Shown here in pieces: positions 1 through 43,089 of a stretch of 64,000 nucleotides of DNA. Source of the stretch: Enterococcus rotai. Lineage in GTDB: Bacteria; Bacillota; Bacilli; Lactobacillales; Enterococcaceae. Location: NCBI RefSeq assembly GCF_001465345.1, contig NZ_CP013655.1:806001-870000 (forward strand), read 5' to 3'. The notes beneath the pieces are model-generated. The model did no database searches. It was not told where the DNA came from and saw only the letters and a list, made by a program, of their open reading frames with translations. Numbering within the stretch: the first letter of the stretch is position 1; each line of letters opens with the position of its first letter. The position numbers and the translations under genes are program-made.

Positions 1-344
1 AAGGTCAAAATGTATAAGGCATCTGGAATTTGTTGATTATTAAATAGTAAAATCAATGGCGTAAAAATACCACCTAGGTAATATGAAATGAATGTCCAAT
101 AATTCAATCCAAATGAAGCATACCACGTATAAAAGATGCTTTCGTTTCCTTTTACAGCTGTATTGTAACTAGCAAAAAAATTCGATAACTGAGTGAAAGA
201 ATCACTAGCCATCACACTTCTTTCACTCCCTGGATAAATTCCAATGGATAAATAAACTGCTCCCATCAGCACTATTGGCAAAACAAAACTCAAAACGACC
301 ATTATACCATTCGCCTTAAAAATAGACTGTATCTTCTTTTTCAT
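1..344 (-). CDS. YfhO-family membrane protein, N-terminal part (partial)
   Basis: The gene begins at ATG 344 behind GGAGAAG and runs off the window start, so only about 114 residues are visible. It opens MKKKIQSIFKANG, followed by a hydrophobic helix and a loop with IGIYPGSERSVMASDS, then aromatic-rich membrane segments. This matches the start of YfhO-type polytopic proteins, GT-C-like enzymes linked in Firmicutes to glycosylation of teichoic acids and other cell-surface polymers. It lies 45 bp after the signal peptidase gene on the same strand and could be the last gene of the WxL transcript. The family call rests on the N-terminal pattern only. Confidence 0.6.
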   Translation of the reverse strand, partial: MKKKIQSIFKANGIMVVLSFVLPIVLMGAVYLSIGIYPGSERSVMASDSFTQLSNFFASYNTAVKGNESIFYTWYASFGLNYWTFISYYLGGIFTPLILLFNNQQIPDALYILT

Positions 345-389
345 ATCTTCTCCTTTTAAAAATGTCAAAACATTGTTGATTCACCTAAT

Positions 390-1028
390 TTAATGAATCC
401 TCCCCATTCGTGTAAATGGATAATAACGATATACTGCAACGCCTTCTATTTGATCCGCATCAATCAATCCTATAGTACGACTGTCTCGAGAATTATTGCG
501 ATTATCGCCTAAAACAAAATATTTCTTTTCTGGAATCCTCGCTAACCCTTCTAAAGAACGCGCAATACCTTGCGATAGTTTGATTTTAAGAGTGCCATCT
601 GGGATATCTGTCTGATTAACTGTTTTTCCACTACTGTTCACAGGTTCACGCAATTGATGATTCAAATACAAGTTGGTTCCATCTAACCAAATGGCATCAC
701 CAGGCAGACCAATAATACGTTTCACATAGGATTTACTCCTTTGGTCTTTCGGTTCGAACGTGACTACATCATAACGCTCAATTCTAGTGGTCTTCGAAAC
801 AATCATTCGATCTCGATTTTCAAAAGTTGGTAGCATGGAATTTCCATCAACTAAATGAGTACGGGTTGTAGACAGCATAATCAAGCAAAGTACTGTAAAA
901 AATACAAAGAATAGATTAGCTACCACATTTTTACCCCATCTTTTTTTACGCTTATTCAATTTTTGCTTAGAAGATTTTTTTCTTTTATTTATTTTTTGCT
1001 TAGGTAGTCTTTCATTTTTCAAGTGCAT
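390..1028 (-). CDS. Signal peptidase I, catalytically intact, WxL locus
   Basis: Type I signal peptidase of 212 aa that cleaves Sec signal peptides at the outer membrane face. It has a very basic cytoplasmic N-terminus (about 33 residues, Lys/Arg rich) and one membrane anchor at about 34-54. The catalytic Ser64 sits in DGNSMLPT and the general base Lys103 in YVKRIIGLPGD. The box E motif GDNRNNSRDSR is at 174-184. It lies 21 bp downstream of a second family member that has lost both catalytic residues. Its place in the WxL cluster suggests it matures the secreted products of this locus; that is inference. A third, also intact, paralogue lies at 42544-43089. Confidence 0.93.
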   Translation of the reverse strand: MHLKNERLPKQKINKRKKSSKQKLNKRKKRWGKNVVANLFFVFFTVLCLIMLSTTRTHLVDGNSMLPTFENRDRMIVSKTTRIERYDVVTFEPKDQRSKSYVKRIIGLPGDAIWLDGTNLYLNHQLREPVNSSGKTVNQTDIPDGTLKIKLSQGIARSLEGLARIPEKKYFVLGDNRNNSRDSRTIGLIDADQIEGVAVYRYYPFTRMGRIH

Positions 1029-1049: not shown

Positions 1050-1766
1050 TTAAAAACTTTTCATAGACTGCAACGGTAACCATCTCATACGCACTACGCC
1101 AATAATGTCTGTGTCCTCGACTAAACCATAATTTCGACTATCCGTTGAATATCGGCGATTATCTCCCAGTACAAGATACTTTTTTTCAGGAATTTTTTTT
1201 GCTCCAGAAATTTGATTCAAGGTAAAATCACCTGTCAATAACATTGAATCTTGGTGGGCATCTTTTAGTGGTTTTTCTAAATAACGTTCTACTTGAAATG
1301 TATCATCTATGTATAGTTGGTCATTTTTATAGTAGATATCTTCATCTGGCATACCTATTACTCTTCTTACGGATAAATCACGTTGTTTGTTTGCTTTCAA
1401 CACCACTAAATCAAAGCGCTTAATCGTTTCCAATTTATTTACAAATAGTCGATCTCCATTTGCTAATTCCGGCATCATGGCATAACCAGACACTTTTGGC
1501 ACTGAAAATAGAAAAAAAGACAAGGCATAGACAATCAGTCCAACAATAATTATCGCAATAATCAATTGTAAAAGAGTTGTTCGTAGCATCTTTACAAAAG
1601 TGGCTTTTTTCTTTCGCCTTTGCTTCTTCTTTTTATGCAAGCTGCTATTTTGGTTCTTCGCAATAATTTGGTTCTTTTTTCGCTTTTTCCCAACTTTTTT
1701 GGTTCTTTTTCGTTTCGAATCCAAAAGTGGTTTTGCTGATTTTTTTTTAGGTATTTTCGTGTTCAT
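1050..1766 (-). CDS. Signal peptidase I-like protein lacking the catalytic Ser/Lys dyad
   Basis: This 238-aa protein has the overall signal peptidase I fold signature: a basic N-tail of about 60 residues, a membrane anchor at about 64-88, box D-like VRRVIGMP, and an intact GDNRRYSTDSR box E at 201-211. The nucleophile motif reads GYAMMPE, with Ala96 (codon GCC) in place of Ser. The general-base position is Arg134 (AGA) instead of Lys, and LPGD is changed to MPDED. I checked both substitutions on the DNA. The frame is open and box E is conserved, which argues against simple decay. Dyad-less homologues are known from Streptococcus pyogenes pilus loci (SipA), where the protein acts non-catalytically in assembly. 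A chaperone or adaptor role for the WxL complex is inferred. Confidence 0.85.
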   Translation of the reverse strand: MNTKIPKKKSAKPLLDSKRKRTKKVGKKRKKNQIIAKNQNSSLHKKKKQRRKKKATFVKMLRTTLLQLIIAIIIVGLIVYALSFFLFSVPKVSGYAMMPELANGDRLFVNKLETIKRFDLVVLKANKQRDLSVRRVIGMPDEDIYYKNDQLYIDDTFQVERYLEKPLKDAHQDSMLLTGDFTLNQISGAKKIPEKKYLVLGDNRRYSTDSRNYGLVEDTDIIGVVRMRWLPLQSMKSF

Positions 1767-1789: not shown

Positions 1790-2455
1790 CTAATTTTTCT
1801 TTTTTAATGCTGCTTCATTGATATTAAAGTGTTCGAATACTTTCTTTTGCTGTAGTTTAGCTTTTTCAAGATCTTCGTTGAACTCTGACATTTTCTCAGG
1901 ATTTTTCAAAAAATCTTCTTGTTGTGCTGCTAAATTGATTCCTAATTCCATCATAATTTTAAATTGCTTATTCAAAATCCCTTGTCCTTCAACCGTCAAA
2001 CGTTGATTGGCCAACCTATTCCCATAACTGGACAAACGTCCAGACAACTCTTTTATGTTATTAGCAATTTTCGTTTTATTATCATTATTTTCAGCTTCTT
2101 TCAACTGTAGATCTATTTGTTCTATAAGATAATAGCCTTGTACAATCGCATCAGAATCGCGCTCACTTAGGCTATTTGCTTGGTAGTACCTTGAATAAAA
2201 TGAACCACCACCACAAATAAAAGCAAGAACTAATAAGACAATCACATTAATCAGCTGACGCTTATATACTCCTTCTAATCTACGTCGTTCTCGTTTCAAT
2301 TTGATCCTTTTTCGTTTATTCTTTTTTCTGATTCCGCTTAAAAAGCGAATTTTTTTCTTTGTTGAAAAAAGAGAAAAAAGCAATAGGATTGAAAATAAGA
2401 AAAAGAGGATAGCGAACGAAAACAAACCTATAAATATCCAATCTAAAATACTCAC
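1790..2455 (-). CDS. WxL-locus membrane protein of unknown function
   Basis: No family is recognised with certainty. The 221 aa have two hydrophobic helices (about 5-30 and 68-84) separated by an extremely basic loop (RKKNKRKRIKLKRERRR) that should lie in the cytoplasm. A roughly 130-residue tail follows, rich in Leu, Lys, Asn and Gln with helix or coiled-coil character. It sits between the DUF916 gene and the dead signal peptidase with 22-23 bp gaps, so it is probably cotranscribed. The topology suggests a membrane partner of the WxL machinery, but no function can be assigned. Confidence 0.8.
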   Translation of the reverse strand: MSILDWIFIGLFSFAILFFLFSILLLFSLFSTKKKIRFLSGIRKKNKRKRIKLKRERRRLEGVYKRQLINVIVLLVLAFICGGGSFYSRYYQANSLSERDSDAIVQGYYLIEQIDLQLKEAENNDNKTKIANNIKELSGRLSSYGNRLANQRLTVEGQGILNKQFKIMMELGINLAAQQEDFLKNPEKMSEFNEDLEKAKLQQKKVFEHFNINEAALKKKN

Positions 2456-2477: not shown

Positions 2478-3557
2478 CTATTTTCTTGATGGCTTTGTAC
2501 CAGGTTGTTTCTTTCTCTTTTTCTTTTTAGTCTTTTTCCCGACTTTCCTAACAATAAAGAAAATCACTATAACTAAAACAAATAATCCACCAACGATTCC
2601 AGCAATAAACGTCCAGTTTATTTTGCTTTCTTGCAATAAACTGACATCTTCAGCATTAAATTTGTCTGCTTCTTCATCTGTAATCGTGAAATCTTGATCC
2701 CATTCCCAGCGATCTGCTCCAGCCGTAACAATAATATGTGCAGAATAATCACCAGCAACCATTCGCTCACCTTGCATCGAAACTGGAAAATCTAACATTG
2801 AATTAGGTGCCATTCTCATAGCTGCCTTTTTAGTGTCATATAATACTTGATCTGATCCTTTCCCACTCACTTGAACATCAACAGTCATATCTTCAATGAA
2901 AGTGGCCTGAGTATTAGAAAAATTGACAAAGACTGTATTGCGATAATTTTTTTGATTTGCATAAACCTTATTTAAAGATAGTTCTGGCTTTACTTCTGTA
3001 TCGGTCTCTTTTAAAATCATTCCTACTAAATAGGCATATTTGTTAAGGATTGAGCCGCTTTGAGGTTTTTGTTCTTCATTTGTGATGTTCTGCATTTCAA
3101 TCCCACCAGTAATAATGCCATCATAAGATGATTCTGGCATCGTAATATCTAGGTCAATCGTTTTTTCTCCTTTTGGAGGTATTTTGACTTCGTCGGGACC
3201 TTTCACGATATCAACAAAATCATATTTTAAGGATGCATCGTTCTCAATCACGGTTGGTCCATATTCGATGACACCATTACTATTTGATTTAGCGCCATTT
3301 AATTTAACACTGATTGTTGTTTCTATGTCTGAAGGATTGGTCAATTTGATTTGAACTACTTGTTTTTGACCTGGTGTCATTTTCAAATCAAAGTAGCCAG
3401 TTTTTTTATCAACTTGATTCTCTGGATGAATCACCTCAAAGTTAAAGCCTCCCATATCTTTTTTGGAATTAGCATCTTCAGCATAAGCATTGCCTGCCAG
3501 TATAGCTGTTAGGAATATGTATAATAAAACTAAAAGTGCAAATACGCGTTTCTTCAA
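2478..3557 (-). CDS. DUF916/DUF3324 WxL-interacting protein
   Basis: The 359-aa protein has a signal peptide (1-27, AYA/ED), a DUF916 domain over about 38-160 (includes FEVIHPENQ and MTPGQKQVVQIKLTNPS), a DUF3324 domain over about 165-300, a transmembrane helix at about 315-338 and a short Lys-rich tail. In the family the DUF916 part binds peptidoglycan, the second domain is host-binding, and the protein forms complexes with WxL proteins. It is encoded directly after the two short WxL genes and separated from them by a 36-bp hairpin, the classic WxL operon order. Recognition is strong; partner specificity is inferred. Confidence 0.92.
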   Translation of the reverse strand: MKKRVFALLVLLYIFLTAILAGNAYAEDANSKKDMGGFNFEVIHPENQVDKKTGYFDLKMTPGQKQVVQIKLTNPSDIETTISVKLNGAKSNSNGVIEYGPTVIENDASLKYDFVDIVKGPDEVKIPPKGEKTIDLDITMPESSYDGIITGGIEMQNITNEEQKPQSGSILNKYAYLVGMILKETDTEVKPELSLNKVYANQKNYRNTVFVNFSNTQATFIEDMTVDVQVSGKGSDQVLYDTKKAAMRMAPNSMLDFPVSMQGERMVAGDYSAHIIVTAGADRWEWDQDFTITDEEADKFNAEDVSLLQESKINWTFIAGIVGGLFVLVIVIFFIVRKVGKKTKKKKRKKQPGTKPSRK

Positions 3558-3651: not shown

Positions 3652-4416
3652 TTATAACGGAGTATCACTAATAGTCCAAGTAATCTCAGCCGTATATTTA
3701 CCTACTGAAAGCATGTTGTCACCAGGTACAGTTAGTTTTACAGATTCTCTGATATTTTCAACACTTGTTGCTCTGTTACCAAAAGCAAGTTTGTATTGAC
3801 CAAAACCTTTAGTCGCATCTGTATTGTCAAGGAATAATGTGTTTTCTCCAGCAGCCAATCCATCTGCCGCTGGTTCTAATTTAACAGGAGTAGTAACTGC
3901 TCCAACTGGTTTTAAAGCTTCCGCATTAGCTGTACCATTAGATGCTACACGAGTATTAGCAAAAGTAATAAACGCACCTTTTAATTGGCTTCCGTTTGCA
4001 TGTGCAAATTGCGTTGATAATTTACCATAGATTTTGTAAGTGTGGTCTGTAGTTGAACGTACATCTTTAAAATCTACAAAGTTTTCCATATCACCAAAAG
4101 TAGCGTCATTAAATGGTTTTGCTTCATACGTTGGTGATGAACCATCAGTTAAAATATCATGTTTTTCAAAGTCTAATGGTGTGATACCAACGATTTTCAT
4201 ATCCGCTGTACTTGGATTTACTGGTGGGTAAGGTAAAACTGGTCCATCAGTATCTGGCGGTGTAATTGTATCTGGTGTTGTATCTTTTTGAAATTCTACA
4301 TTTCCTTCTCCTGCAAAAGAGTCACTTTCTGCTGCTTTTGTTGCCCCTGGTAGAGCCAATCCTAAGCCGATTACAGCTAGTAAAGCTGCTCCACAAATTT
4401 TGTGTGTGTTTTTCAT
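3652..4416 (-). CDS. WxL-domain cell-surface protein (254 aa)
   Basis: This secreted protein has a signal peptide (1-28), a Pro/Asp/Thr-rich linker (TPPDTDGPVLPYPPVNP) and a C-terminal WxL domain that gives non-covalent attachment to peptidoglycan. The distal motif is canonical: Trp247 in AEITWTISDTP at the extreme C-terminus. The proximal motif is altered: the equivalent stretch reads TYKIYGKLS, with Tyr/Ile where Trp/Leu is usual. The start is ATG behind AGGAGGAAAT. It is followed on the minus strand by the DUF916 gene. Probable structural component of the WxL complex. Confidence 0.93.
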   Translation of the reverse strand: MKNTHKICGAALLAVIGLGLALPGATKAAESDSFAGEGNVEFQKDTTPDTITPPDTDGPVLPYPPVNPSTADMKIVGITPLDFEKHDILTDGSSPTYEAKPFNDATFGDMENFVDFKDVRSTTDHTYKIYGKLSTQFAHANGSQLKGAFITFANTRVASNGTANAEALKPVGAVTTPVKLEPAADGLAAGENTLFLDNTDATKGFGQYKLAFGNRATSVENIRESVKLTVPGDNMLSVGKYTAEITWTISDTPL

Positions 4417-4445: not shown

Positions 4446-5258
4446 TTATGGCAACTCGGAAATTATCCAAGTTAACACCGTTTGGTATGGTACCGGATCA
4501 ATTTTAGTTGCCCCCGGTATAGACAACGTTACTGCACTGTTTTGATAGATGGGTTTATTTTCAAAATTTGGATCCAATAATGGTTTTCCATCCGGACCTA
4601 TGGCTGGACTTAATGTATTCGGCATAGCATTGGAATTCTCTTCCGATGCACCGAATTCAATCGACCATGTCCCTTTTCCCATATTATTTTTTGCTTCCGC
4701 CAAATTATATGTTTCACCAATATTATCAATTTTGATAATATCTTTCGAAACACTCGGCGCCTGAGATAAATCACGAGTTGAATTGACCCATGATTTATCA
4801 AAGGAAATCATCGCACCTTTTAATTCGTTGTTTAGCGTATTATTATTTTTAAATTGTGTTTCTTGGCGCACTTGCAAGCTCCAGCCACTTCTATTTGGGC
4901 GATAATCAGAGACCTGAATAAAATTCCCTCTAGGTCCTGTGTCTCCTAAAAATAATTGTGCATTAGCAGGATAAACTGTATCTTTTTTCGAAATTTTATT
5001 TTTCCCAAATGATAGTTTTGGAACAAAATCAATACGTAAATCACCAGTTGTATTTGGCGTCGGACCGGGATCAACCTTATTTCCTGGCTTTTCCGGGTCA
5101 AAAATACCTGCTTCATACTCTCCGTCAAATACAATTTCCCCTACATCAGTATGACTTTCTTGTGCATACGTAGGTGTATCTAATGCGGTTACCATCAGGC
5201 TCGTCCCTATAATTGAAAAACAGAAAATGGAAGTTACTAACAATTGTTTCACTTTCAT
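4446..5258 (-). CDS. WxL-domain cell-surface protein (270 aa)
   Basis: The protein has a signal peptide (about 1-32), a short linker with DPGPTPNTTGD, then a WxL domain with both motifs intact: SGWSLQV (Trp126) and TVLTWIISELP (Trp264) ending the protein. Its start codon overlaps the stop of the preceding YPSTG protein gene by 4 bp, so translation is probably coupled. It is expected on the cell wall with the other WxL and DUF916 products. Confidence 0.93.
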   Translation of the reverse strand: MKVKQLLVTSIFCFSIIGTSLMVTALDTPTYAQESHTDVGEIVFDGEYEAGIFDPEKPGNKVDPGPTPNTTGDLRIDFVPKLSFGKNKISKKDTVYPANAQLFLGDTGPRGNFIQVSDYRPNRSGWSLQVRQETQFKNNNTLNNELKGAMISFDKSWVNSTRDLSQAPSVSKDIIKIDNIGETYNLAEAKNNMGKGTWSIEFGASEENSNAMPNTLSPAIGPDGKPLLDPNFENKPIYQNSAVTLSIPGATKIDPVPYQTVLTWIISELP

Positions 5259-5602
5259 TCTGGCGTCCCTCCTTCTTTACCTTTTCTCTTTTTCAAAAGA
5301 AAGTAGAAAAGAACAAAGACTATAAGGGCGAAGCCACTGATTCCTAAACTTTTCTTCACCAATTCACCTGTTGAAGGATACCTGCCACGCGGTTTAGTCG
5401 GACTTGGTGCTACAGAGCTATTTTTTGTCTTAGGTACGTCGCTTTCCGTAGTACTGATGATTGTTTCTTCATAAAAATCAACAACGCCATCAGTTTGGAC
5501 TGCTCCGCCGTTATCTGCTGCCTGAACAGGCATAGCCGAAACACTCAGTAGAATTGTCACACCCACAAGAAGGCGAGTAAAACGTATGATATTTTTTTTC
5601 AT
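5255..5602 (-). CDS. Small surface protein with noncanonical YPSTG sorting-like signal
   Basis: The 115-aa protein has a signal peptide (1-28, VQA/AD), a short acidic and Ser/Thr/Pro-rich ectodomain and a C-terminal sorting-like module: YPSTG at 75-79, a hydrophobic helix at about 86-103 and a Lys/Arg tail. The first sorting residue is Tyr (codon TAT) rather than Leu. Small LPXTG-type proteins are usual in WxL operons. This one may be handled poorly by housekeeping sortase A, be used by a dedicated sortase not in this window, or simply stay as a membrane protein. It overlaps the downstream WxL gene by 4 bp. Confidence 0.85.
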   Translation of the reverse strand: MKKNIIRFTRLLVGVTILLSVSAMPVQAADNGGAVQTDGVVDFYEETIISTTESDVPKTKNSSVAPSPTKPRGRYPSTGELVKKSLGISGFALIVFVLFYFLLKKRKGKEGGTPE

Positions 5603-5620: not shown

Positions 5621-8600
5621 CTATGGTGTAAGACCTAACTTCCAAGTTATTTCTCCTTGATACTGTCCAAGTTTTTGAACATTCCCCGCTGGAACCTCAA
5701 GTTTCAAGCCCGCATGTCCCGGACCCCATCCAGAGCTAACAACATAGTCTCCAGCTGTTGCATGTGTCTGCGTCAAGACTCCTAAAGACTCCCCAGTTAG
5801 TGGAAACTCTTTTGTCCCAGTATTGTAGCGAACGGCTTCGCTCAACACTTTACTATTATCATCAACATTTCTCATTTCTTTTGTTAGAGCAGCTGTTAAT
5901 GTCCATTGCTTTAATGTTCCACGATTGTCAGAAACAACCAATGGTTTATCTAACTCAGGATTTTCAACTCTTGTATCTTTCATACCCGCAACATGTGTCT
6001 TAAAGTCGATTACAGTTGGTGCAGAAGTGATTGATAATGTTCCAAATACAGCCCCTGTACTAACTTCATTAGATTTAGCGTCATAAATATCATACTCAGG
6101 ATTGGCATTGATTCCAGGTACAAAGGATTCACTTGTTTCTCTTGGCGAATACCCATGCGCATATGCTGTGTTTTTAATATCCTGATCGACTGCTGACTGT
6201 TGAACAGTTACTTTAAACGTTACTTTGGCACTTTCTGTTGATTTGAGATCGCCGATTTTCACAGTAAGCGTACGAGTATCTGCTACATAAGAGAACTGAG
6301 CTGATGTAGCAAGCTCTCCATTAATTTTCACCTCAGCATTTGCTGGATCAAACTTTAAACCTTCTGCTAATTGATCAGTGATCCATGCATCTCTTAAAGT
6401 AGTGGCATAAGAAGCACTTTTGGCATTATTTACATTCAATGTATAGGTTAATGTATCACCTACCGACGTATTCCCATGTCCACTTGTAGTAAACTCTTTA
6501 ACAATTTTATTGGTATCCGGTAAAATATCTTTTACTTCATATTTTGCTACACCTTTGAACACTGCATCATGATAAGTATAATCTTGATACGGATTAATGT
6601 TGCCTTTATCTGTGTTTGTTACAGGCGGTTTGATCAATCCATTTGAATCATATGACTGTTTTCCGGCTGTATCTTCAAGATAGATACTTAGTTCTTTTTC
6701 TTTATCAACATACGCTGGTAAATTAAATACCCATTTACCATCTGGTTGGACTCTCGTGGTACCTAACAAGTTTCCTGTATCCTTATCACCATTGTCATAG
6801 TATACATAGACTGTGGCACCAACTTCTGAACCATCTCCAGCTAAAACCTTTGTTGCATTGTTTAAGTTAACATCAGTCAATTTTGCAGGTTCTGGTGGTG
6901 TTACATCTAAAATAGAGCGTTCTGGTGCTTGCAGTTCATCAGGCTTACTCGTGTGAACACTTTCCGTCCCTTCACCACTCTTAGACCCACGCCAAGCACC
7001 CACTACTTTGATTGTGTGCTCTTTCGTTAGAAACTTTCCCTCGGGTACTTGAATTTTTATAATCCCCGCCCTAGGTGCATCGCCATAAACCGATTCTCCA
7101 CCGTTTCCGTTCTCATCACCAATAGAACTTCCTATTTGTTCAAAATCTAATGTTCCATCCGCTTTATATACCTTTACACGTACATGGACTTCATCTGTAT
7201 AGGCGTCTCGATTTTCTTCACTTTTACCTTCAGGTACACTAGCATGACCCCAGATATATTTATCTGCATTAGTAGGAACTCTTAATTCGTCAACCACAGC
7301 ATTTTGATTATTGGCTGTCATCCTTGAATATGCATCTGCTCCAGCAAATTTCCCTTGAAAATCAGGATTATCTGTAGAAACAATATTGCTAAATCCACTA
7401 CCGCTTAAACTTGCGTTCAAAACAGTCCAAGATAAACTAGGATTTCCATCAAGATTTTGACCGTTCTTCCAAACAGATAAGTCTGATCCATTTAAAACAA
7501 ATGTCGAAGAAGCACCATTTTGGAAAATCAAGCCGCCTCCTGAAGAATCATTTCTAAAATCAAAATATTTTGGTTTCGTCATATTAAACGTTGTTGTATT
7601 ACTTGGTGAACTGAATATTCCATAGTTTGATCCAGCCGTTTTTCCACGTACTACAAAGTAAGCACCCTCGGTTTGTTCAACGTCAAGCATTTGGCTATTA
7701 CAATCAATAGCTGCTCCATAATCCGCTTCAATCAGCACATTCGAGTCTTCTCCTAATGCTTTAAAGTAACTAGTCTCTCTAGAGCTTCCCAGCCTAAATT
7801 GAATCCCTTGATTGCGACCATTAGCTCCTGGATTTCTCGGAGTACCGTCCCCTTTATTTTTTAAAAGAAAATCTGATCCACCTGAAACGATGATTGAATT
7901 ATTATTACTAAACATTCGAACGCCTGAATTATTCGTTGATTTCTTCAGAATATTTACTTTCGAATTATTGGAGACTTCGAAACTGTTATTCCCTTCATCA
8001 TAGAAACGAACTGCAGCAACTAGATTATTTCCATCTGCACTTTCTGCTTCAATATCTAAAGTACTGTTATCATCAACAATTAACTTCCCTCCAAGACTTC
8101 TCATAAAGAATGCTGGAGACCCACTTGTTGGCGCTAATGATTTTATAGCTAGTTTAGCTCCAGCTAAGATATTTACATTTGAAACTGAAGAAGTTGAATT
8201 CACCAGAAAAATCCCATCACTCGAAGCTCCACCTGTTGCGTAGCCGACCACATTAAGTTCAGTGTCTGCTCCTGATATTTCAAAATTTGCGACATTCATT
8301 GCTTGAACTACATTATAGTTACCAGTACTTTTTAGATTTACCTTCGAGCCTTCATTAACTAATAATGATGAACCAGAAATACTTGTCGTATAAAATCCTC
8401 GCACCAAATCTGCGGTTACATTTGCATGATCTGAAATTTTCAAATTTTTAGAGGCTATAAATGAATCAGCTGCTGTACTTACAAAATTATTTTCACCACT
8501 GATAACTACACTACCGTTTACCAAGCTAGTTAAACTTGATGCATTTCCAGTCAAAGTAGCTAGATTGTTTACTCTCAATTCCCAGTTAGCACTGTTGCTT

Positions 8601-9460
8601 GCAGTATTACTACGAAATATCGGTGTAGCACTACCACTATAATTCATATCTAAAAGCGCCATGAAGCTCCCTGGTGAAGCTGTCCCTAATGTGATATATC
8701 TAGCCAGAAAATCAATAGAGTGTGTAACGTTGCCATCTTTTCCATTAATAACTTTAGATCTTGTTGCAGTTGGTCCTGCAGACGTTGCAGAAAAATCGGC
8801 TTTCAAATTAATCCAATCAACAGATCCATCAGTTACAGCTGCTTTAAATTGCTCCCATGTACTTACATCGACTGGATTACTCGGAGTTGGTACGTCTACA
8901 CTCAAAGGAGAAACTGCATAGTTCACAGCTTGAATCAATGAACGTTCTACTAAGGTATTTGAATTTACTTCTGTTTCTGACGTTACAGCATCACTAACTT
9001 TTGGTACATCAAATGAAGTTGACGTTAAGACTTGTCCATCAGCATTTTTTAACGAGAAACTGCCTTTATCTAGCTTAGTATCTGGATCCACTTGAACCAA
9101 TAATGTAGTAACAAACTTACCACCATTTTCTTTAAAATCGAAATCCACACTGTTTAAATCTTTAGGCTGCTTTACAAGAACTTTATTCTCATATTCCGTC
9201 GGTACCCCATCAAATAAGTTTTCATCTCCGATCGGCATTGTTCCTTCAGCAGTTAAACGAAGTATTTCTTTATGCATCGTTGGAATAACCAAGTCAACTT
9301 TTAAAAATCCAGTGCCTTTATAGTCCGTATCTACTACTTGCAAACTATAACTCTCTTCATTTGCTTTTATAGGAGCTGTCTTTTTTAATCCCATAAACGT
9401 AACAACTGAGATCAATACTACCGCCAACAAACAGATTTTTATCTTTCTGCTAATTTTCAT
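5621..9460 (-). CDS. Large WxL-domain adhesin with beta-helix-like region
   Basis: This 1279-aa secreted protein has, in order: a signal peptide (1-34); an N-terminal beta-rich region; a long Asn/Ser/Val-rich stretch (about 200-700) starting VSTWEQFKAAVTDG, typical of the pectate-lyase-like adhesive beta-helix of Listeria and Enterococcus surface proteins; an Ig-like module (about 860-950); a DUF11-type repeat (about 990-1110, TYTLNVNNAK and TFKVTVQQ); and a C-terminal WxL domain (KQWTLTAAL, and GEITWKLGLTP with Trp1273). The start ATG follows GGAAAGGAGG. It is the first structural gene of the locus and probably its main ligand-binding component. Ligand unknown. Confidence 0.9.
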   Translation of the reverse strand: MKISRKIKICLLAVVLISVVTFMGLKKTAPIKANEESYSLQVVDTDYKGTGFLKVDLVIPTMHKEILRLTAEGTMPIGDENLFDGVPTEYENKVLVKQPKDLNSVDFDFKENGGKFVTTLLVQVDPDTKLDKGSFSLKNADGQVLTSTSFDVPKVSDAVTSETEVNSNTLVERSLIQAVNYAVSPLSVDVPTPSNPVDVSTWEQFKAAVTDGSVDWINLKADFSATSAGPTATRSKVINGKDGNVTHSIDFLARYITLGTASPGSFMALLDMNYSGSATPIFRSNTASNSANWELRVNNLATLTGNASSLTSLVNGSVVISGENNFVSTAADSFIASKNLKISDHANVTADLVRGFYTTSISGSSLLVNEGSKVNLKSTGNYNVVQAMNVANFEISGADTELNVVGYATGGASSDGIFLVNSTSSVSNVNILAGAKLAIKSLAPTSGSPAFFMRSLGGKLIVDDNSTLDIEAESADGNNLVAAVRFYDEGNNSFEVSNNSKVNILKKSTNNSGVRMFSNNNSIIVSGGSDFLLKNKGDGTPRNPGANGRNQGIQFRLGSSRETSYFKALGEDSNVLIEADYGAAIDCNSQMLDVEQTEGAYFVVRGKTAGSNYGIFSSPSNTTTFNMTKPKYFDFRNDSSGGGLIFQNGASSTFVLNGSDLSVWKNGQNLDGNPSLSWTVLNASLSGSGFSNIVSTDNPDFQGKFAGADAYSRMTANNQNAVVDELRVPTNADKYIWGHASVPEGKSEENRDAYTDEVHVRVKVYKADGTLDFEQIGSSIGDENGNGGESVYGDAPRAGIIKIQVPEGKFLTKEHTIKVVGAWRGSKSGEGTESVHTSKPDELQAPERSILDVTPPEPAKLTDVNLNNATKVLAGDGSEVGATVYVYYDNGDKDTGNLLGTTRVQPDGKWVFNLPAYVDKEKELSIYLEDTAGKQSYDSNGLIKPPVTNTDKGNINPYQDYTYHDAVFKGVAKYEVKDILPDTNKIVKEFTTSGHGNTSVGDTLTYTLNVNNAKSASYATTLRDAWITDQLAEGLKFDPANAEVKINGELATSAQFSYVADTRTLTVKIGDLKSTESAKVTFKVTVQQSAVDQDIKNTAYAHGYSPRETSESFVPGINANPEYDIYDAKSNEVSTGAVFGTLSITSAPTVIDFKTHVAGMKDTRVENPELDKPLVVSDNRGTLKQWTLTAALTKEMRNVDDNSKVLSEAVRYNTGTKEFPLTGESLGVLTQTHATAGDYVVSSGWGPGHAGLKLEVPAGNVQKLGQYQGEITWKLGLTP

Positions 9461-9665: not shown

Positions 9666-10385
9666 TTAGCCATTCAACATATACCCTTTCGAACGAATCG
9701 TCTTGATATACTCTTCGTCACTTTCTTCTACCTCAAGCTTCCTGCGTAAATGATATATAATATTCGCTACCCGATACTGCTTATCTTCATCTCCGCCGTT
9801 CCAAACATTTTTGTAAATTTCTTCGTAAGTCAGTGCTTGCCCTACATGATTACTTAGTAGCTCGATTGTTCGAAATTCAAGCTTAGTCAAACTTACTTCC
9901 TGCTTTCCATTTAGCAAGACACTAAAATTTGAAGGAACTAATTCAACTCGCTTTTTTGTTGGAGTAGTTTCCATGAGGCGTTTTTCCTCGTAAGAATCCT
10001 GGCTTTTTTGACTTTTTTTAGAGTATCGCTTCAAATTCCCTTGAATAAACAAGACCAGTTCGTCCGAATCAATCGATGTATTAATAATGCCGTCTGCTCC
10101 TAATTTCATGTATACAATTCTCGTGGACTTATCTGTATTCTCAGATAGTATCCACACTAAAGCAGAACTTTGCTCACGAACTTTAATAATCGACTCGCAA
10201 ATCACACTCATTTGATTCTTTGTCTCAGTTTCTTCAATAATCAAAGCATCTAATTCATCTGTCATAAGATCCAACTTGGACTTGTCATCTAAATAAGAAA
10301 TATTGTATTTTGATTCTTCCAATGCGTCTATGTATGTATCTTGGTTCGTTTTGGTGCTCGAAGAAATAATTCCAATGTTGTACAT
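9666..10385 (-). CDS. OmpR/PhoB-type winged-helix regulator with degenerate receiver
   Basis: The 239-aa protein has a C-terminal OmpR/PhoB-type winged helix (about 140-238: LTKLEFRTIELL, YRVANIIYHLRRKLE, IKTIRSKGYML). The N-terminal region has the length and pattern of a receiver domain, but the early acidic pair is replaced by IISSS, the phosphoacceptor strand reads ALIIEE (Glu for Asp) and the switch Lys is missing (GADGIINTSID). It probably works without phosphorylation. The start was set at ATG 10385 because GGAGGAG lies 7 nt upstream; the ATG at 10400 is inside that ribosome-binding site. No histidine kinase is nearby. It probably controls the adjacent WxL operon. Confidence 0.82.
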   Translation of the reverse strand: MYNIGIISSSTKTNQDTYIDALEESKYNISYLDDKSKLDLMTDELDALIIEETETKNQMSVICESIIKVREQSSALVWILSENTDKSTRIVYMKLGADGIINTSIDSDELVLFIQGNLKRYSKKSQKSQDSYEEKRLMETTPTKKRVELVPSNFSVLLNGKQEVSLTKLEFRTIELLSNHVGQALTYEEIYKNVWNGGDEDKQYRVANIIYHLRRKLEVEESDEEYIKTIRSKGYMLNG

Positions 10386-10519
10386 CTTTCTCTCCTCCAT
10401 ATTTTATGGTCTATGTTTTTATTCATTTTTCCCTATTATTAGTCTTTATATTTGCAGTATTCATAAATACTTTTTATACTAGATAAAATCAGTATTTAGA
10501 TGACTATTCTTCATTCTGT

Positions 10520-10759: not shown

Positions 10760-11860
10760 TTAGATAAGTGCTAGTTTTTTTATTGCTGCGCGCTGTTCTT
10801 CTATAAATGAATTTGTGTACGTGTCTAATGTTAGCTTGATAGATGAATGCCCTAACAAAGAACTTATTGCCGCAATATTAACACCCAACTCAACGCAACG
10901 TGTTGCAAACGTATGGCGGAGCGCATGGAAAGAAACATTCATTAATCCTATTTTCTGCTTGATTCGTTCAAAACGATAGCTGATTGTTCTAGGTTCTACA
11001 GAATGTCCTTCATTTGTTATGACGTATTCAGAGTGTGATTGTTTTTTACAGTGCAACAATGCACTCTTTACTTTCTTAGAAAGCGGAATGATCCGGTTAG
11101 CATTAGTGGTTTTTGGTATAGTTTCAATAATTTTTGTCCGTTGTCCAGTTGCACTTGGTAAGGCAATTCGTTGTTTTGTTCGTTGAACTTTTATTATAGA
11201 TGATTCAAAGTCGATATCCTCCCATTTTAGTGCGCAAATTTCACCAATACGCATCCCTGTTTCCAAAGCTAATAAGATAGGCAACCCTTTTATATCCTTC
11301 ACGCTTTCAGTTTCCACTGCTTTTTGTTGTACTCTAGTTAAAGCTAAAACTTTCCGTTTTTCAATTTTAGGTAGAATTGTCCGTTCACAAGGATTTAAGT
11401 ACACGTAGCCTCTTTCTTTTGCCGCTTCAAAACAGCTTTTTATAATTCGGAAAACAATATGAATAGAACTAGCCGCTAACGTTTCTGTTAATCGACTAAT
11501 CAATTTATCCATATCAAAAGCAGTGATTTTTTTTAGAGGTCTTTTCCCCAAAATAGGTAAAACGTATAATTGAAGTTTTTTACTATAGCTAGCATAAGTG
11601 CTTTCCTTTAGTGTTGGAGCCATGATTTCTGTCAGCCAAAGGTTCGACCACTCTCCAAATGTGCCGTAAAATTCTTTGGCTGCTCCACTATAAATGAGCG
11701 GTTTCTGTGCTTTCTTGTCTAATAACTGTTCCTTTACTGCTCGATATGATCGTGCATAAATATACCCATAATGAATTGTCCCATCTATTTTTCGTGCTTT
11801 AGGATAACGCCCTTCCCAGCGTCCATCCTTTCGTTTATAAATATTTTCTCCTCTAGCCAA
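10760..11860 (-). CDS. Tyrosine recombinase / phage-type integrase
   Basis: Site-specific recombinase of about 366 aa. It has an N-terminal arm-binding-like region (KRKDGRWEGRYPKARK), a SAM-like core-binding domain (about 70-160) and a catalytic domain with the full set of residues, numbered from the start used here: Arg204 (TGMRIGE), Lys250 (IPKTTNANR), His312 and Arg315 (HALRHT), His338 (LGHSS) and Tyr348 (DTYTNS). No ATG exists near the N-terminus; TTG at 11860 is chosen because AAGGA lies about 9 nt upstream (TTG at 11869 is the alternative). No excisionase, repressor or other mobile-element gene adjoins it. It is either a relic of an element or the recombinase of a small invertible segment (see flanking repeats). 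Confidence 0.92.
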   Translation of the reverse strand: MARGENIYKRKDGRWEGRYPKARKIDGTIHYGYIYARSYRAVKEQLLDKKAQKPLIYSGAAKEFYGTFGEWSNLWLTEIMAPTLKESTYASYSKKLQLYVLPILGKRPLKKITAFDMDKLISRLTETLAASSIHIVFRIIKSCFEAAKERGYVYLNPCERTILPKIEKRKVLALTRVQQKAVETESVKDIKGLPILLALETGMRIGEICALKWEDIDFESSIIKVQRTKQRIALPSATGQRTKIIETIPKTTNANRIIPLSKKVKSALLHCKKQSHSEYVITNEGHSVEPRTISYRFERIKQKIGLMNVSFHALRHTFATRCVELGVNIAAISSLLGHSSIKLTLDTYTNSFIEEQRAAIKKLALI

Positions 11861-11885
11861 AATAACCAATTCCTTCCTATATTAT

Positions 11886-42543: not shown

Positions 42544-43089
42544 ATGAAAAAGAAACACAGCACACTTTATACAGTAATCCAATTTTCAATGATTTTGCTA
42601 TTTGCGCTTTTCCTTAGGAAGTTTGTTTTAACACCTGTGGAAGTTATCGGCATTTCAATGGAGCCAACTTATCATGAATCTGATCGCCTGTGGCAAACCT
42701 CTTTGGTCAGTCCAAAACGTTTTGATGTAGCAACTTTTCCGAGCCCACGAGATGGAAAACGAATCGTGAAACGTGTTGTCGGCTTGCCTGGTGATACAAT
42801 CCGGATGGAAAATGATCAATTATATATCAATGATAAAAAATATGATGAGCCTTATTTAGATGAATTTAAAGAAACTTTAACAGACGGACAACCCTTAACG
42901 GCTGATTTCACTTTGGCGAGTACAGCTGCTGGGCCCGCAACGGTTGTTCCAGAAGGAAAGTATTTTGTATTAGGGGATAATCGTCGCAAAGCCGATGATA
43001 GCCGTTACTTTGGTTTTGTGGATAAAGAGGATATTGTCGGTGTGGTTTATTTTCGGTATTATCCATTGAATAAGATCGGTGTACAATAA
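42544..43089 (+). CDS. lepB: Signal peptidase I (housekeeping type)
   Basis: The 181-aa enzyme has one N-terminal anchor (about 8-27), the nucleophile Ser38 in GISMEPT, general base Lys76 in IVKRVVGLPGD and box E GDNRRKADDSR. It processes Sec-exported precursors. It is monocistronic and preceded by an extended -10 (TGATATACT near 42503). Unlike the two WxL-locus members it lacks the long basic N-tail. Comparison with it makes the missing dyad of the 1050-1766 protein clear. Confidence 0.95.
   Translation: MKKKHSTLYTVIQFSMILLFALFLRKFVLTPVEVIGISMEPTYHESDRLWQTSLVSPKRFDVATFPSPRDGKRIVKRVVGLPGDTIRMENDQLYINDKKYDEPYLDEFKETLTDGQPLTADFTLASTAAGPATVVPEGKYFVLGDNRRKADDSRYFGFVDKEDIVGVVYFRYYPLNKIGVQ

Follow-up and report, generated by a model that had tools for sequence, protein, structure and literature searches.

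What does a type I signal peptidase homologue contribute to a WxL surface-protein operon once it has lost both of its catalytic residues? The question is raised by a 64,000-nucleotide stretch of the Enterococcus rotai genome (C1:806001-870000 of 3.75 Mb, NZ_CP013655.1), referred to here as the window. A gene at 1050-1766 on its minus strand encodes such a homologue directly behind the gene for an unannotated membrane protein of 221 residues, TM221. We use the name SPX for homologues in this position, SPA for homologues directly behind SPX, and treat the remaining homologues as others. An earlier note on this DNA had placed Ala96 (GCC) at the nucleophile and Arg134 (AGA) at the general base, and both codons were confirmed, as were the open 238-codon frame and the retention of box E (GDNRRYSTDSR). 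The two paralogues that it used for comparison, SPA with Ser64/Lys103 and a plus-strand homologue at 42544-43089 with Ser38/Lys76, do carry the dyad.

Dyad loss across the SPX family

The E. rotai genome contains 16 signal peptidase I matches, 12 of which lie in SPX operons (9 SPX and 3 SPA), and the order WxLIP-TM221-SPX occurs nine times, in the window and in eight further operons. The base position is Arg in all nine SPX; at the nucleophile site five have Gly, three have Ser and the window copy has Ala. The seven other matches keep Ser and Lys. Since Lys is absent from 9/9 copies behind TM221 and kept in 7/7 of the others, dyad loss in the window is not a matter of chance.

The same pattern was found in relatives, whose loci are a selection among the matches listed in the SPX search (at least 80 loci in one set, with the reference strains of E. 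faecalis and E. faecium outside the survey). Among the matches listed, each of the 21 other genomes of the genus has 12-27 to the SPX protein; ten SPX were obtained from one relative (G002), and named carriers include E. crotali, E. rivorum, E. termitis and Vagococcus allomyrinae. Among 90 distinct SPX, a set that includes the shortened L047 and the broken near-copy L141, the nucleophile site is Ser in 44, Gly in 29, Ala in 12 and Met in five, and the base site is Arg in 84, Gln in two, Lys in two, Met in one and Phe in one. Ser and Lys never occur together (0/90), so orthologues retaining both, which the earlier note had named as the sign of a strain mutation, were looked for and not found in this set. 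Its question of whether Ala/Arg is fixed receives a divided answer, with Arg nearly fixed (84/90) and Ala one of several residues in use. By contrast with SPX, Ser and Lys are both present in 47/47 distinct SPA and in 81 of 88 distinct other homologues, the remaining seven being six staphylococcal sequences and L063, an E. rivorum SPX with a large WxL-type gene between it and TM221. Judged from these sequences, the Ala/Arg of the window is not a strain mutation and belongs to a dyad loss shared across the SPX family.

Because the SPX group had been defined by position, a reverse search was started from a TM221 profile in 395 genomes drawn from the order, with at most seven candidates scored per genome. 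TM221 was present in 35/395 genomes and 6/80 genera, and 20 of the 35 genomes, E. rotai included, came from the genus of the window. In 26 of 30 TM221-led loci, some of whose genes are identical to those of the first set, a signal peptidase homologue lies directly behind TM221, and none of the 26 has the dyad (25 Arg, 1 Val at the base site), whereas SPA in these loci keeps Ser and Lys in 13/13 cases.

The order of loss was examined in a tree of 161 rows, left after redundancy cuts at 65-70% from 90 SPX, 47 SPA and 88 others, with the catalytic columns omitted. The SPX rows and L063 fall on one side of a branch whose support, 75, is not firm, and 38 SPA rows group at support 97 together with L004, an E. 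rotai peptidase without an adjacent SPX. Within SPX the Lys site needs four changes and the Ser/non-Ser state 14, compared with one and two among the 98 other rows. The simplest reading is that the base was lost once, early, and Arg then held, with the nucleophile changing repeatedly later. An active signal peptidase I copy in a WxL operon would thus have exchanged Lys for Arg early on and would then have drifted among Ser, Gly, Ala and Met at the nucleophile, with its fold and most box motifs retained. Two copies from one genome (L173 and L174, G010) have Ala at the nucleophile yet keep Lys, the only Lys-bearing SPX, and these may represent a separate route to dyad loss. A 4.3 kb contig from a Lactobacillales metagenome-assembled genome (L124) encodes an intact Ser/Lys signal peptidase in a short frame (409-822) that precedes a WxL2-like gene; a second WxL-like gene and a WxLIP-like gene were recognised by eye, and no TM221 was seen on the contig. 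This arrangement is perhaps the state before dyad loss.

Selection and retention of the fold

Nei-Gojobori ratios of nonsynonymous to synonymous substitution (dN/dS) were calculated for 19 SPX pairs, orthologous or paralogous, chosen by hand from the 48 listed at or above 72%. The ratio lies between 0.066 and 0.185 in all 18 pairs with a defined dS, one pair being saturated, and between 0.106 and 0.185 in the 11 pairs with dS below 1. Five Gly/Arg pairs, which have neither catalytic residue, give 0.11-0.18 at dS below 1, and seven SPA pairs give 0.089-0.187. The purifying selection that the earlier note had proposed to look for is therefore seen, with dN/dS far below 1 in 18/18 computable pairs, as a property of relatives of the window copy, whose own nearest relative among the matches listed is 48% identical. 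In the relatives compared, the SPX family is a predicted pseudoenzyme under selection. That SPX is a functionless relic of a paralogue is very improbable in view of these low ratios, of its invariant non-catalytic residues and of its maintenance in many operons and species, even though L047 of E. rotai (G000:C1:3738614-3739051) has a shortened C-terminus and, in its longer frame, none of the usual start codons, and L141 (G016) is a shortened near-copy of another SPX with stops upstream.

The window SPX matches Pfam Peptidase_S26 (E=1.8e-38) and NCBIfam TIGR02227 (E=3.2e-38), exceeding both cut-offs, and its strongest hydrophobic stretch starts near residue 68. Its predicted model is 38% identical to SpsB over the structural match. 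By sequence and fold SPX belongs to the type I signal peptidases (S26A); as an active S26A enzyme, with a Ser nucleophile and a Lys base, it does not qualify. Boxes D and E are largely kept in the family apart from the dyad. Tyr or Phe at position 95 is new relative to active signal peptidases, and position 132 is Ser in 45% of SPX, compared with Tyr in 89% of SPA and 62% of other peptidases. One could imagine that SPX still cuts by an altered mechanism, for example through a Ser-Arg pair, as Ser stands with Arg in 41/90 copies and boxes D and E are otherwise largely preserved. We give this hardly any credence, since 46/90 copies, the window copy included, have no Ser at the nucleophile site and the Ser278-equivalent is not Ser in 57/90. 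Moreover, the 186 repressor, a superfamily relative with Arg at the base, has been likened to Streptococcus pyogenes SipA, itself without peptidase activity (PMC12984324).

SPA, YfhO and TM221 as neighbours

SPA lies directly behind 48/90 SPX, with a median gap of 24 bases. The pairing with an active peptidase described in the earlier note thus stands for the window and is optional across the family, and by gene order TM221 is the steadier partner of SPX. The residue at the Ser site has no evident link to the presence of SPA, except that all five Met copies are accompanied by it. Among 89 modules for which 500 or more downstream bases were available, a gene for a glycosyltransferase-like YfhO homologue comes next after SPA in 46 of the 47 that have SPA and after SPX in 3 of the 42 that lack it (49/89 overall), and in E. 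rotai 5/7 full-length YfhO matches are in SPX operons. The association of SPA with YfhO thus seems no weaker than its association with SPX. The YfhO-family protein of the window is related to streptococcal PgfM1/PgfM2, with scores far below the cut-offs of those models, and in Streptococcus mutans the pgf operon takes part in modifying surface proteins (PMC5856776). The cassette of YfhO and active peptidase suggests, from its gene content, glycosylation of WxL adhesins.

These counts bear on the idea that SPX regulates signal peptide cleavage, competing with SPA or the housekeeping peptidase for selected precursors, delaying their cleavage, or entering a mixed complex. The retained fold and many box residues would suit such a part, as would the close position of SPA. 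We nevertheless find it unlikely, because 42/90 SPX have no SPA neighbour, the Ser-site residue does not follow SPA beyond the five Met copies, and the tie of SPA may be to YfhO.

A receptor or anchor is also conceivable, in which the basic tail and the altered pocket (Tyr95, Arg134) would bind a non-peptide ligand such as lipids, wall polymer precursors or glycan and so place the WxL complex. The inner tail has a median net charge of +24.5 and a median length of 65.5 residues in the 90 SPX, the pocket has acquired new fixed residues while positions 131-132 are not kept, and a YfhO-like gene is found downstream in more than half of the modules. We hold this to be less probable still than a cleavage regulator, as the tails of SPA are basic too (median +12) and 40/89 modules have no YfhO-like gene behind them.

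TM221 has no fitting Pfam or NCBIfam model. It is predicted to consist of a membrane helix hairpin, whose inner part is basic, and a helical bundle on the outside, and the family is conserved directly behind WxLIP. In some other genera it is present without an adjacent SPX.

Proposed role of SPX

We favour, by analogy and at a probability of roughly 0.46, a role for SPX as a SipA-like membrane scaffold for assembly of WxL and WxLIP proteins, the likeliest of the mechanisms considered. SPX would sit in the membrane next to TM221 and bind, without cutting, the signal or near-membrane segments of newly exported WxL, WxLIP or LPXTG partners. Its task would be to keep these partners close to one another during assembly of the complex, up to its transfer to the wall; SipA has been proposed to act in this way in some streptococcal pili. 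The cutting would be done by the housekeeping peptidase, or by the SPA of the SPA-YfhO cassette in operons that have one. A broader version, which we consider possible if rather doubtful, is an export-assembly platform present in many copies in enterococci, in which a unit of SPX and TM221 would take up WxL adhesins emerging from the Sec channel. About half of the copies would add a cassette of a dedicated active peptidase and a YfhO glycosyltransferase that trims and glycosylates the adhesin on this platform.

Several observations weigh against the scaffold. Ser persists beside Arg in the 41 copies mentioned above. Confidence in the SPX model drops around the catalytic loops (91-100 and 201-210), and also in the inner tail and at the C-terminal end. 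Positions 131-132, directly before the base, belong to a region that lines the substrate in active enzymes (PMC12984324) and are not kept in SPX, and Pro99, Thr100 and Gly141 are relaxed to 64-70%, so that the peptide cleft of SPX cannot be taken as unchanged. Another gene lies directly behind TM221 in 4/30 loci, and on the E. wangshanyuanii plasmid NZ_CP021876.1 (L234) a WxL cluster with TM221 has no SPX (this cluster is near an IS21 element and a gene annotated as BsaA family SipW-dependent). Of the 25 WxLIP matches in E. rotai itself, 22 are full-length, two are fragments and one falls below the cut-off. For 12 WxLIP genes other than those of the nine SPX operons (L051-L058) no strong TM221 match and no signal peptidase match was found nearby; the weak TM221-profile match in these stretches is a 387-residue WxLIP protein, and a full-length WxLIP site near 1555005 lies outside the stretches compared. 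SPX is thus not required for WxL clusters as such. Finally, SipA is essential for some pili, but no binding was detected in pull-downs in vitro (PMC4049620), and PMC12445088 describes SpsA of S. aureus, likewise a dead homologue, as dispensable. Staphylococcal SpsA is thus a case in which a dead copy next to a live one is not needed.

The window locus

SPX is a component of a WxL gene cluster, encoded on one strand with WxL, WxLIP and LPXTG genes (Table 1). The minus-strand order is regulator, large WxL, short LPXTG, two WxL, WxLIP, TM221, SPX, SPA and the start of YfhO. L042-L045 have similar regulator genes upstream, and L048 has one downstream. The regulator adjoins a phage-type integrase gene at 10760-11869, and a search of the window for tRNA genes was negative. 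Scanning of 10 window proteins against Pfam and NCBIfam gave no sortase match.

Table 1. Genes of the WxL operon in the window, from its left edge
Feature	Position	Strand	Description
YfhO-family membrane protein, 5' end	3..368	-	leaves the window at the left edge; 878 residues in L050 (L050:7733-10369)
SPA	390..1028	-	signal peptidase I homologue, Ser64/Lys103 intact; optional SPX neighbour
SPX	1050..1766	-	signal peptidase I homologue without dyad (Ala96, Arg134); predicted basic cytoplasmic tail, one anchor, external S26 fold
TM221	1790..2455	-	membrane protein without annotation, directly upstream of SPX
WxLIP (DUF916-DUF3324)	2478..3557	-	PF06030 3.4e-37, PF11797 4.4e-44
Small WxL protein	3652..4416	-	PF13731 1.5e-24
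Second WxL protein	4446..5258	-	PF13731 1.3e-43
Short LPXTG protein, EF2685/EF0750 family	5255..5602	-	NF053819 1.2e-26
Large WxL adhesin-like protein	5621..9460	-	pectate-lyase-like region, fimbrial isopeptide domain, C-terminal WxL (Pfam/NCBIfam)
Regulator	9666..10400	-	winged-helix domain and weak receiver-like part

Comparison with known systems

Some pilus operons, and staphylococci too, were already known to encode dead signal peptidases, and the mechanism of SipA is unsolved. SPX resembles S. pyogenes SipA (LepA) in having an S26 fold without the dyad within a surface-structure operon (PMC4049620, PMC7900414). It was rejected as a SipA orthologue, since the SPX family profile matches SipA (4n31) at E 3e-5 over box E only and active peptidases at 6e-41 (4nv4) to 6e-37; orthologous sequence, pilins and a pilus sortase, which mark the SipA pilus-assembly family, do not characterise SPX. 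Streptococcus suis SipF, unlike SipA, keeps its catalytic residues (PMC2797073).

Staphylococcal SpsA is likewise a dyad-less homologue, directly upstream of the active SpsB. The six staphylococcal rows without Ser and Lys, to which we assigned this name by position and literature, differ from SPX in having Asn, Ala, Glu or Ser with Gly or Ser at the two sites. SPX as SpsA was also rejected, because these rows fall among staphylococcal peptidases in the tree and SPX with SPA. With active type I signal peptidases such as SpsB and E. faecalis EF3073 (4me8), SPX has its Pfam and NCBIfam family and its fold in common; compared with them, it has lost the catalytic Ser and Lys and mostly the Ser278-equivalent, and has gained Tyr/Phe at position 95. 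SPX is a much larger family than the dead homologues known before, with nine copies here, 90 distinct sequences, a likely order of loss (base, then nucleophile) and a steady partner, and its many natural variants are a resource for studying the function of a signal peptidase fold that no longer cleaves.

The accessible parts of PMC1534035, PMC8262879, PMC5817068, PMC6152273, PMC10599100 and PMC9772566, with the subscription literature mostly outside this set, describe no signal peptidase gene, live or dead, in a WxL cluster, and the word peptidase is absent from the main texts of PMC10599100 and PMC9772566. Like the WxL/Csc clusters, the SPX operon has WxL proteins, WxLIP and an LPXTG protein (PMC9772566, PMC10599100, PMC1534035), and two Enterococcus faecium WxL proteins are reported to bind their cognate membrane protein in vitro (PMC5817068), which gives the WxL complex itself some support. 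The clusters as described in those parts consist of small and large WxL, DUF916 and LPXTG proteins, without a signal peptidase, TM221-like or YfhO gene. To these surface complexes, whose assembly is not understood, the operon adds three candidate parts, namely SPX, TM221 and the SPA-YfhO cassette.
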